Shown here in pieces: positions 9,089-60,869 of a stretch of 64,000 bases of DNA; positions within the stretch are counted from its first letter, which is position 1; each line of letters begins with the position of its first letter. The stretch is from Myroides profundi (GTDB taxonomy: Bacteria; Bacteroidota; Bacteroidia; Flavobacteriales; Flavobacteriaceae). The translations under genes were made by a program, and so were the position numbers. The notes under the pieces were generated by a model, which was not told the DNA's origin, ran no database searches, and was given only the letters and a program-made list of their open reading frames with translations. The DNA is taken from contig NZ_CP010817.1 in NCBI RefSeq assembly GCF_000833025.1, forward strand, positions 930,001 through 994,000, written 5' to 3'.

Positions 9089-9252
9089 AAAAAAAGCCCA
9101 CATTAGTTTGAGTCGCGTAAACTCTCTTATTAACAAGTTTTGAGTTAGCTTGCTTTTCAAGGATCTGCGCAAGGCAGCATGCTTTAGTTGCAAAGATTCA
9201 CCCATTTTAATTTGTTTGTGTTGAGTTTATCAAACAGTACTAATGTGAGCAG
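9089..9252 (-). ncRNA. ssrS: 6S RNA (SsrS)
   Basis: The zapA-rny spacer reads on the minus strand as a long, mostly closed hairpin. The 5' arm GCTCACATTAG (9250-9240) pairs with CTAATGTGGGC (9106-9096), followed by a T run that makes the end an intrinsic terminator. Next inward, GTTTGA pairs with TCAAAC and AAACTC with GAGTTT, leaving an asymmetric bubble and an apical stem. Length of about 160, the rod shape, and the location next to zapA (as in Proteobacteria) and before rny all fit 6S RNA, which binds the housekeeping RNA polymerase. The exact 5' end is inferred. Confidence 0.75.
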
Positions 9253-16959: not shown

Positions 16960-17283
16960 TTATTTAAATAGATCTAGTCCAGGGATATTCGGCATTCCAT
17001 CTTTAGCTGCCGCAGCTAATTCTGCTTCATTGATAGCAGACGCTTTTTCGATAGCACGGTTAAGTACCATGACTAAGTAGTCTTCTAGTTGTTCTTTGTC
17101 CTCCATTAGTTCATCACTGATAGATAAAGAACGAATAGTTCTATTAGCAGTCATCGTCACTTGTAGTAACCCATCATTACTCTGATCATCTACTAATACG
17201 GTGTCTAATCTCTTCTTTGTTTCTTCTATCTTAGCTTGGGTCTCTTGTAGTTTACCCATCATGCCCATTAAGTCTCCAAACAT
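16960..17283 (-). CDS. YbaB/EbfC nucleoid-associated protein
   Basis: 107 residues, family length. N-terminal Met/Gly-rich start ([21 protein letters not shown]), a helix, then beta strands with [14 protein letters not shown] and a C-terminal long helix ending in Ala-rich [12 protein letters not shown], the conserved YbaB tail. Cytoplasmic dimer that binds DNA without strong specificity. Usually next to recR or dnaX; here it heads a pair with a DUF4369 lipoprotein. Confidence 0.93.
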
Positions 17284-17308
17284 GTTTAATACATTTTAGT
17301 TAGTGGCG

Positions 17309-17316
17309 CAAAAATA
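17309..17316 (-). promoter_or_regulatory. -7 box TATTTTTG for ybaB
   Basis: Exact TAnnTTTG 26 bases before the ybaB ATG. Confidence 0.5.
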
Positions 17317-17440
17317 TTAAAATCTTTTTAAGATAAATGATTTTGTTATAGAATAGTTAATAACAACTGATGGATATTCTATATTATAATAGTGTATGAG
17401 GGTATCTATCACTATCAAAATGCAGTAGTCAAACGGATAT

Positions 17441-17514
17441 AAAAAAAGTGACCTAGTTATTTGGGGGTAACTAGGTCACTTAAGAAAAAGAAAGTTTTGT
17501 TGTTTTTGTTGTGA
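17441..17514 (-). ncRNA. Candidate small RNA, sigma-54-type promoter to strong terminator
   Basis: No gene lies upstream of a perfect 14-bp terminator hairpin read on the minus strand (AAGTGACCTAGTTA at 17446-17459 with its complement at 17468-17481, then seven T). Reading back, the 5' region is unstructured and A/C-rich (ACAACAAAAACAACAAAAC), then comes a TTGGCACG-N-TGT promoter-like element. The predicted transcript is about 75 nt: an unpaired head able to base-pair with mRNAs plus a stable 3' hairpin. No RBS or open frame fits. The 5' end is inferred from promoter spacing. Confidence 0.6.
17446..17481 (-). terminator. Orphan terminator, minus strand
   Basis: Perfect 14-bp stem, 8-base loop, T7 only on the minus-strand 3' side, so it does not serve a plus-strand transcript. 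Confidence 0.85.
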
Positions 17515-17523
17515 TACGTAATT

Positions 17524-17540
17524 TACATATATCGTGCCAA
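17524..17540 (-). promoter_or_regulatory. Sigma-54-like promoter (-24/-12)
   Basis: On the minus strand TTGGCACG (17540-17533) followed by ATATATGTA. The GG (17538-17537) is exactly ten bases from the G of the -12 dinucleotide (17526), the sigma-54 spacing; the -12 C is T here. Confidence 0.55.
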
Positions 17541-17742
17541 AAAATATAAATACATGAAAATTTATGTTTTTTATTGAGATAATAAGTTGCTTATTTTTCT
17601 TTAAGTAGTTAATATGTCTTTTAAATAAAGGGATTAGAGAAGGTAAAGTATTTTATCAACACAGGTGGTGTAGGTATGATCTTTGTGTAGAAAAGTACAA
17701 TAAACTTAATCTAGGTCAAGTCTAGTAGAAGAGAATTAGTTC

Positions 17743-17750
17743 TAATTTTG
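17743..17750 (+). promoter_or_regulatory. -7 box TAATTTTG
   Basis: Exact TAnnTTTG 36 bases before the acetyltransferase ATG; no -33 TTG. Confidence 0.45.
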
Positions 17751-17786
17751 TAATAAAGTAGAATTAACCATGTAAACGTATAGGAT

Positions 17787-18104
17787 ATGAAAGAAGAATT
17801 TGTAAATTTAGAAGTAAATAAAAATGCTGATACTAACCGTTTTGAATTAACAGTAGATGGTCATACTGCATTTATAGATTATGCTGAAGAAGGTAATATT
17901 ATTAAACTTATTCATACAGAGAGCCCAGAAGAGCTAGCAGGTAGAGGAGTGGCTACTGCTCTAATCGAGAAGAGTCTGATGTATATAGAAGAGCATAACT
18001 ATGAGCTGTACCCATTATGTCCGTTAGTGTATGCTTATATTAAGCGTCATCCAGAATGGAAGAGAATAGTATCTGGAGCGTTTCCTGCATACGATAAACT
18101 ATAA
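17787..18104 (+). CDS. GNAT-type N-acetyltransferase (COG2388-like)
   Basis: 105 residues, the short single-domain GNAT form. The acetyl-CoA loop ELAGRGVATALIEKSL lies at residues 50-65; YPLCPLVYAYIKRHPEW follows, the C-terminal signature of the YidJ/GTLF1-like group. Acceptor unknown. Start codon has a clean 5' context and a -7 box upstream. The FMN reductase gene follows 13 bases later, so the two form an operon closed by a strong terminator. Confidence 0.88.
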   Translation: MKEEFVNLEVNKNADTNRFELTVDGHTAFIDYAEEGNIIKLIHTESPEELAGRGVATALIEKSLMYIEEHNYELYPLCPLVYAYIKRHPEWKRIVSGAFPAYDKL

Positions 18105-34955: not shown

Positions 34956-35024
34956 TGTAATAATGTATAAAAGTTATTTTTCAGAACAACATACACGGAC
35001 CTCGCCAGAGGTTGGTCTAAAATC
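34956..35024 (-). promoter_or_regulatory. Candidate L19 autoregulatory leader
   Basis: From the promoter at 35037 the rplS transcript has about 70 bases of leader containing the hairpin ACCTC-TGGC-GAGGT, within a larger GACC...GGTC stem. Ribosomal leader motifs for L19 have been proposed in flavobacteria, and the place and shape fit; I could not compare with a covariance model. Confidence 0.5.
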
Positions 35025-43783: not shown

Positions 43784-43817
43784 AGTCTATCATTCAGTTT
43801 TACGTTAGTATACTATT

Positions 43818-43876
43818 ATGTTAGACGTCATCAGCATTCTATAGAGAAGCGGTTCGAGGCAGACATCATTGCCCAT
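43818..43876 (-). promoter_or_regulatory. Fluoride riboswitch (crcB motif)
   Basis: Read on the minus strand the leader shows the crcB-motif blocks in order: GGGCAATGA, GCC, GAACCGC and GCTGATGACGTCTAAC. P1 is GGGC/GCCT, P2 is GATGTC paired with GACGTC (one wobble), and P3 is GC-TTCT with AGAA-T-GC. All match the fluoride aptamer topology. It starts about 13 bases after the TACCTTTG promoter and ends about 35 bases before the CLC-F ATG. Fluoride binding should raise CLC-F expression. Confidence 0.92.
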
Positions 43877-43888
43877 GATTTAATAAGT

Positions 43889-60029: not shown

Positions 60030-60869
60030 TTAGTTTTTTATATTTAATTTGTATATTCCTGATTCGTTCTTGTCATTATCAGGGTCCTCACATAGTAAGA
60101 ATTCTAAGTTTTTTCCTTCTTGACTATATAAAGTTAATCCTTCGAATTTATGTGTGTTACTTATGGTTAGTGTCTTTTCTACTTTTAATTTTTTGGTATC
60201 TATACGTCCTAGTATAGTTCCTTTTATTTCTCCATCAGCATAGGTTGATTGACCATCTTCTGCAGCAGCTAAGAAGTATATCTTGTCTTCTACTTTAATA
60301 GCGTCTGTAAAGCTAGTCTGTACTTTATTAAGTTTTGGTAATTTGATAGGCGTATAAGTGATTTGAAAATCATTTAGAATATTGTTACCCTTTACTACGA
60401 ATACTCCATTAGCACCTTTAGGTCCATTTCCTCGATTAAAGAAATACCATAGATCGTTGTCAAAAATTACACCTTCTATATTAAAGTCCGCTTCACTTAG
60501 ATTAGCAAAACTCTTCATAGAATCATATAGTATGTCTAGTTCGTTTTCTGAAAGGACTTCGTGCGTCAGTCCGTTTACTTCTACTAAGTTTATTCTATTC
60601 GGTTTAGAGCCAGAACCAAAAATATAGTAGTTTAACCCATCTGTAGTGATTGCTTCATAATCAGGTTTAATAGCTTTCTCTATATTCTCTTGACTTAGAT
60701 TGTCACTTGATAAAGACGTTTTATAAAGATGATTATTCTCTAAACTATAGTGATAGAAGTAAGTGGAGTTGTCAGAAATGATATGGAGTTGGTTGTCATT
60801 ATACACTAAGCCAGATGCAGCTCCAATGCCTAATATCTGAAAAAGTAGTTCAAGTGCAATTTGTTTCAT
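60030..60869 (-). CDS. DUF6929-like beta-propeller protein
   Basis: 279 residues, no signal peptide. ELLFQILGIGAASGLVYNDNQLHIISDNSTYFYHY and repeated beta blades (GLNYYIFGSGSKPNRINLV, VIFDNDLWYFFNRGNG, KIYFLAAAEDGQST) resemble Bacteroidota proteins assigned to DUF6929. Probably a five- or six-blade propeller, possibly a lactonase-like or sensor protein. Assignment to the family is from memory of its pattern. Function unknown. Alone on its strand. Confidence 0.6.
   Translation of the reverse strand: MKQIALELLFQILGIGAASGLVYNDNQLHIISDNSTYFYHYSLENNHLYKTSLSSDNLSQENIEKAIKPDYEAITTDGLNYYIFGSGSKPNRINLVEVNGLTHEVLSENELDILYDSMKSFANLSEADFNIEGVIFDNDLWYFFNRGNGPKGANGVFVVKGNNILNDFQITYTPIKLPKLNKVQTSFTDAIKVEDKIYFLAAAEDGQSTYADGEIKGTILGRIDTKKLKVEKTLTISNTHKFEGLTLYSQEGKNLEFLLCEDPDNDKNESGIYKLNIKN

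Follow-up and report, generated by a model that had tools for sequence, protein, structure and literature searches.

A predicted small RNA gene behind a sigma-54-type promoter in Myroides profundi

We analyzed a 64,000-nucleotide stretch of the Myroides profundi genome (contig NZ_CP010817.1, positions 930,001 to 994,000), hereafter the window. On its minus strand lies a compact element that we read as a stand-alone, trans-acting non-coding RNA gene of about 75 nt with a sigma-54-type promoter. Judged from sequence and its conservation, we give this reading as a whole a probability of roughly 70%. Within the reach of our searches, the small RNA (sRNA) would form a new family within a known kind; its promoter deviates from the consensus at −12. 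The element is made up of the following parts.

17545-17441, minus strand: the whole unit of the candidate sRNA gene, with box, spacer, leader, terminator hairpin and U tract
17526..17541, minus strand: −24/−12-type box TTTGGCACGATATATG, read from the sequence, with GG at 17538-17537 and the −12 G at 17526
17515..17525, minus strand: spacer from the box to the predicted start, not conserved between copies
17482..17514, minus strand: leader UCACAACAAAAACAACAAAACUUUCUUUUUCUU, the proposed seed, unpaired, 33 nt, A/C-rich and then C/U-rich
17446..17481, minus strand: intrinsic terminator hairpin with a C-rich loop, 14 contiguous perfect pairs and an 8-nt loop, followed by T
17441..17445, minus strand: terminator U tract, read from the sequence

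The initial annotation of this locus had described a perfect 14-bp terminator on the minus strand with no gene upstream on that strand. Both points hold: the stem has 14 contiguous pairs, and no minus-strand open reading frame (ORF) of at least 40 aa was found from the element to 18545. The spacing of exactly ten bases that it gave for the GG and the −12 G was confirmed in the box TTGGCACGATATATG at 17540-17526, and the start that it placed near 17514 agrees with the one we predicted from the promoter layout, 17514 on the minus strand. The enclosed stretch had been called A/C-rich and unpaired; the leader is indeed unpaired, but only its first half is A/C-rich and the second is C/U-rich. The predicted 77-nt RNA (17514-17438) folds at −19.7 kcal/mol (z = −7.5), and none of 200 shuffled sequences folded as well. 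Only the hairpin is paired in this fold, and everything 5' of it is open; in all five sequences folded the leader had no predicted pairing, except for one stem-adjacent base in one of them. In a 3-kb scan we counted seven terminator-like sites, some of them on both strands; shuffled sequence gave 1.1 ± 1.0. With its own terminator, a putative promoter of its own and no ORF, the element looks as expected of an sRNA gene.

To compare the element across genomes, we built a covariance model (R1) from five sequences and later one from 15 sequences, and counted 15 copies in 10 genomes. The initial annotation had looked to related genomes for a conserved promoter and hairpin; box, leader and hairpin proved to be kept as one unit throughout these copies, and the stem shows compensatory changes. 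In 12 of the 15, the window copy included, the predicted RNA lacks an AUG. Comparison of the paired copies within five genomes gave 77/80 identical cells in the box, 24/60 in the spacer and 145/155 in the leader, which shows one-base indels between copies. A promoter, an untranscribed spacer and an RNA in succession would be expected to give just this pattern of conserved box, variable spacer and conserved leader, and conservation of the leader sets in at the position from which a −24/−12 promoter would start transcription.

The stem was examined in two alignments. In the 15-copy alignment, which was fitted to the model and hence is biased towards structure, 95.7% of the cells pair and 11 of the 14 stem pairs have changed on both sides; on each of five measures all 500 shuffles fell short, and when the partner was slid by one to three columns, pairing dropped to 16-52%. 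In the unfitted five-sequence alignment, pairing was 100% and three of the 14 pairs had double changes; four measures were reached by 4 to 21 of 500 shuffles each, and the count of pair types by 500 of 500. The significance of the element lies in its conservation and duplication, not in the box alone. We consider it very likely that the element is a real sRNA gene.

The M. profundi genome (G000) is a single 4.06-Mb contig and holds a second copy at G000:C1:46191-46293, 87% identical over query positions 22-132 in a DNA search. That search, run on 60 genomes, returned the window locus, this second locus and a single short match apiece in three other genomes; by eye, two of these matches were box plus flank and one was AT-rich sequence. 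Among 12 ybaB loci inspected, those of Myroides odoratimimus (the nearest named relative found, its YbaB 100% identical), M. marinus and Myroides sp. N17-2 have the element, and it is absent from the other nine. In the covariance searches, G000, G060, G061, G063 and G205 were found to carry two copies each, and G062, G064, G065, G070 and G266 one each; these 10 carriers include six Myroides species or strains and one metagenome-assembled genome named to family. A search of 26 genomes gave eight with clear copies; G068 and G071, with weak matches only, were not counted, nor was a third, weak match in G061. A genus sample of 398 genomes gave eight matches at E ≤ 0.01, from which G316, which has no box, was excluded. 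Three loci with no box near the match (L096, L101 and L108) were likewise excluded, and four genomes present under double handles, as inferred from identical coordinates, were counted once (G063/G344, G062/G240, G065/G378 and G070/G020). A locus in Myroides sp. 1354 (L095, E 0.028) shows a box, AAAAACAACAAAC and a terminator; it is possibly a diverged copy and was also left uncounted.

The copies occupy two kinds of site. Ten of the 15 lie between a gene that we take to be nrdA-like and one that is presumably sufD, and five, the window copy included, lie upstream of ybaB. The nrdA-sufD copy occurs in all 10 genomes, with the nrdA-like gene upstream on the same strand, at a distance of 256 to 1194 nt from its end to the box, and with sufD downstream on the opposite strand, convergent with the element; the ybaB-side copy is additional and was found in five genomes only. 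The nrdA-sufD site is therefore likely to be ancestral and the window copy a duplicate. Searched by pattern over 900 nt of sufD flank, 26 genomes divided into 10 with a copy and 16 that showed none. In Myroides odoratus and strains 1354, WP-1 and NP-2, the neighbor of sufD is a different gene, and we saw no copy at that site. The plasmid collection contained no match to 17300-17780.

In the promoter box, the GG at −24 is present in 14 of the 15 copies (L109 has AG), and a G follows ten bases past this position in all 15. The M. profundi genome carries rpoN and gives 12 matches to the sigma-54 activator domain, four of them strong; by eye, three of the strong ones have a receiver domain, and the one that lacks it lies about 3 kb from groES. 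Upstream of groES-groEL in this genome there is a similar box, CTTTGGCACACTTTATGCC, with GC at −12. In the available part of a study on Flavobacterium psychrophilum (PMC9723704), groESL, dnaK, clpB and the RNA Rfp36 are listed with a sigma-54 motif, and the starts of groES and of a probable sigma-54 regulator are about 3 kb apart. Box-like conserved sites numbered 13 upstream of 573 ortholog pairs, against 3 to 8 with five control patterns, but the majority of these 13 had the look of coding sequence. Within the window, TGGYAC-N6-TG occurs three times (1.28 expected), a count that 14 of 100 shuffles reach. From the layout of the box and its company, we think it probable that sigma-54 is the sigma factor of the sRNA.

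Two further sites in this genome deserve mention. The receiver-less sigma-54 activator about 3 kb from the groESL box (L113, G000:C1:3657378) is a candidate activator of stress promoters. Near 60030 of G000:C1 (L168), TTATGGTACATTTTTTGCC forms a −24/−12 box with GC that is conserved in G205; a protein whose start is signal-like begins 53 bases downstream. An alignment of the 220 nt upstream of 10 copies of the element, inspected for an activator site, showed only short AT-rich similarity near the box.

As for how the element may work, transcription would start from the −24/−12 promoter, only once an enhancer-binding activator has acted, and would stop at the element's own terminator. The RNA would consist of an open 5' half of about 33 nt and the terminator hairpin. 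The open half would most likely base-pair in trans with mRNAs near start codons, by analogy with GibS and FopS of Bacteroides thetaiotaomicron, whose 5' parts pair near start codons according to the available parts of two reports (PMC11697453, PMC7366714). As no Hfq was found in the M. profundi genome and the 5' half is open, GibS and FopS offer the nearest worked-out model. The Hfq search used one Pfam model, whose best match in this genome scored 12.3 bits, below the cut-off of 27, and contained stops; the control genome of Bacteroides ihuae does match the model, from which we draw nothing about Bacteroides. In the Myroides clade with two copies per genome, the second copy could provide a higher dose, or two promoters could feed one regulon. 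Antisense action in trans is the likeliest mode, somewhat favored over the others, with no target confirmed among those considered below.

Several results weigh against this reading of a sigma-54-dependent, trans-acting RNA. On the promoter side, the C after the −12 G is missing in 14 of the 15 copies (GT in 10, GA in four, GC in one). The sigma-54 promoter first annotated here falls short at this dinucleotide, which in the window copy is GT and not GC, and since the canonical GC is mostly unmet, we write of a sigma-54-type promoter and not of a consensus one. The pattern TTGGCAC-N6-TG occurs 10 times in the genome and its reversed control also 10 times, so the box alone is not enriched. Moreover, rpoN was found in all 21 genomes tested, 16 with the element or the second unit described below and five without a clear copy, and its presence therefore does not discriminate. 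On the target side, the mean pairing of the leader with 345 start regions (400 kb) was no stronger than that of shuffled RNA; the lowest 1% was slightly stronger, yet was matched by control sites 200 nt inside genes. Across 511 orthologous start regions, obtained from 573 reciprocal-best pairs in 0.8 Mb (about a fifth) of each of two genomes, there was again no overall excess, the observed count being reached by 5 to 38 of 38 shuffles depending on the threshold. Finally, the best single candidate, upstream of bamA, is not claimed as a target because its site does not co-vary with the sRNA in distant species.

The bamA site is the best conserved duplex among the 511 pairs, with 16 contiguous pairs at −19.9 and −20.0 kcal/mol in the two species and the next best at −14.9; none of 40 dinucleotide and two of 40 mononucleotide shuffles did as well. 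This outlier appeared after the pairing span had been widened from 50 to 70 bases, following a first look. The site lies within codons at the end of the upstream gene, presumably uppS. Paired with the local sRNA, it reached −16.8 kcal/mol in G063, of the two-copy clade, and −12.1 in G266, −12.1 in G062, −11.7 in G070 and −7.6 in G064, which retains a perfect site while its own sRNA has changed. In G069 and G071, which have no clear copy, the site still gave −13.9 and −13.7 with the window sRNA. Three other candidates were rejected. Upstream of trxA there is a perfect 10-base complement, but it falls in a TAnnTTTG promoter box that persists, in altered form, in species without a clear copy too, and was dropped for that reason. 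The site of the gene at 752821 overlaps TAATTTTG, as with the trxA promoter box. A TerC-type gene, matched by the C-rich loop, was set aside since we take its site to be a probable riboswitch core.

We weighed four other explanations of the element. The strongest, although unlikely, is a stand-alone sRNA whose promoter TTTGGCACG is read by another sigma factor, either the housekeeping one or one of the extracytoplasmic function (ECF) type. The near-absence of the −12 C would fit, and an exact TAnnTTTG overlaps TTTGG in three of the 15 copies (L090, L091 and L104) and, by eye, in the groES box. However, the overlapping TA is missing in most copies, the constant features are the GG and the G ten bases on, a start at that site would place the non-conserved spacer inside the RNA, and groESL is among the genes listed with a sigma-54 motif in the F. 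psychrophilum study. At the distance at which a housekeeping −7 box for this RNA would have to lie, no copy has an exact TAnnTTTG (one to four mismatches at best; L093 has one).

Somewhat less likely again, the RNA could titrate a protein through its repeated AAN/ACAA motif instead of pairing as an antisense. CrcZ-type RNAs of Pseudomonas soak up protein in this way. In most copies AAC/AAA triplets make up the leader, and the lack of any target that stands out overall would suit such a role. Against it, the C/U-rich half of the leader is conserved too, and the known receptor of such motifs seems to be missing, with no Hfq above the cut-off in this genome; a CrcZ-like titration of Hfq itself is rejected on that ground.

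A functionless repeated DNA element or a terminator remnant is very improbable: two copies do occur in some genomes, but conservation that goes by segment and compensatory stem changes, seen across the distance from M. phaeus to M. odoratimimus, speak against it. The last explanation concerns the surroundings of the window copy, listed here.

16960..17283, minus strand: YbaB/EbfC-like gene (our assumption as to the product), the downstream neighbor, used to locate orthologous loci
17309..17316, minus strand: TATTTTTG, read by eye as a −7 box of the housekeeping TAnnTTTG type, about 25 nt ahead of ybaB
17787..18104, plus strand: short gene, presumably of a GNAT-like acetyltransferase, the divergent neighbor

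That the element is merely the 5' attenuator or leader of ybaB, with no separate RNA, is the least probable reading of all: it does lie upstream of ybaB on the same strand in five of five genomes, with its TGG 254 to 431 nt before the start codon, but 10 of the 15 copies lie elsewhere, convergent to sufD, and ybaB seems to have its own promoter and so not to need the element, as a TAnnTTTG-type box precedes it in all five element-bearing loci and, by eye, near the start in relatives without the element.

Among known RNAs, no Rfam family fits the element. FopS gave no match in Rfam 15 at the gathering score or up to E = 10, its inclusion there being unchecked. Qrr, GlmY/GlmZ and CrcZ are sigma-54-dependent sRNAs of Proteobacteria that work with Hfq or RapZ. 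They resemble the element as small RNAs behind a −24/−12 promoter, often in several copies, and differ in structure; in sequence they were compared through the Rfam scan alone. FopS and GibS, as far as the available parts of their reports describe them, share with the predicted fold of the element an open 5' seed followed by a terminator. They differ in promoter, FopS having a housekeeping one and GibS another motif where the element has a sigma-54-type box, and FopS has 14 copies, against one or two per genome here. The 6S-Flavo RNA (RF01685), also a flavobacterial small RNA, was placed by an Rfam match in this same window at 9119-9226 (−); its sequence and position are different, and it does not match the element.

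The initial annotation had pointed to reports of sigma-54-linked RNAs in flavobacteria, and one case fits: Rfp36, a putative regulatory RNA of F. psychrophilum, for the start of which PMC9723704 lists a sigma-54-type motif. It resembles the element, by description only, as an RNA behind such a motif in the same bacterial family. As a difference, seven genomes besides G316 match the element among the 398 searched, a sample that may not include F. psychrophilum. Judged by title, that paper was the only related find on sigma-54 or RpoN sRNAs of flavobacteria in the open-licence literature, and we found no related report there on small RNAs of Myroides.

When the 15-sequence model was run against 397 Flavobacteriaceae genomes, it returned its own copies and weak matches in six others. 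Three of these (L206, L207 and L209) looked by eye like gene-end terminators and were dropped, and three represent a different conserved unit, which consists of a TTTGGCACG...TG box, the body TTTTTGGTTAGTTGTTG and then a terminator. In all three loci inspected, it stands directly after a GHMP-kinase-like gene. A model of the three sequences found the unit in six of the 397 genomes, from three genera; the box is present in all six (GT after ten bases in five, GC in one) and the exact body in four.

Second unit, in small-genome Flavobacteriaceae (L205, L208, L210, L269, L270 and L271), ~1500-1620: TTTGGCA[CT]G...TG box, body TTTTTGGTTAGTT[GA]TTG or close to it, terminator

By its body sequence, the second unit is not of the same family as the Myroides element, and it is probably another family of sigma-54-type sRNA. 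As the folded structure of R3 is poor, the second unit is supported by sequence and not by covariation. Two of the dropped gene ends (L207 and L209) have CAAC[GA]AACTTTCT before the terminator, resembling the sRNA leader motif; the model may have picked out a chance resemblance, or this may be a shared 3'-untranslated-region seed.

More speculatively, and with the odds against it, Flavobacteriaceae may run a layer of Hfq-free, sigma-54-switched, terminator-ended sRNAs from several unrelated families, a stress-response counterpart of the sigma-E sRNAs of enterobacteria. Its members would be the Myroides RNA with its clade-specific second copy, the GHMP-kinase-side unit and perhaps more in the M. 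profundi genome. The recurrence of this promoter layout in a second, unrelated unit suggests that control of sRNAs by sigma-54-type promoters has arisen more than once in the family, for which few small RNAs are described in the literature surveyed. The Myroides element combines a compact, conserved sRNA gene with an inducible-type promoter and two copies in a genome where no Hfq was found. With so compact a gene and so recognizable a promoter, the switch (rpoN plus one of four activators) and the target should be accessible by simple deletions.

Two other loci of G000 resemble these units in layout. Near 4053600, a 14-pair terminator stands about 100 nt past a TTTTTGGCACGATACTTG box (L134 1518-1372, minus strand); this unit lies 26 nt past a gene end and is possibly a further RNA of the same type. 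Near 2777600, a TTTTTTGGCACAGCATTTG box (L129 1519-1345, minus strand) has no same-strand ORF of at least 50 aa for about 540 nt; a hairpin and a T run were seen downstream by eye, and the terminator scan lists none. Elsewhere in the window, Rfam matches place an L19 leader at 34987-35014 (−) and a fluoride riboswitch at 43815-43882 (−).
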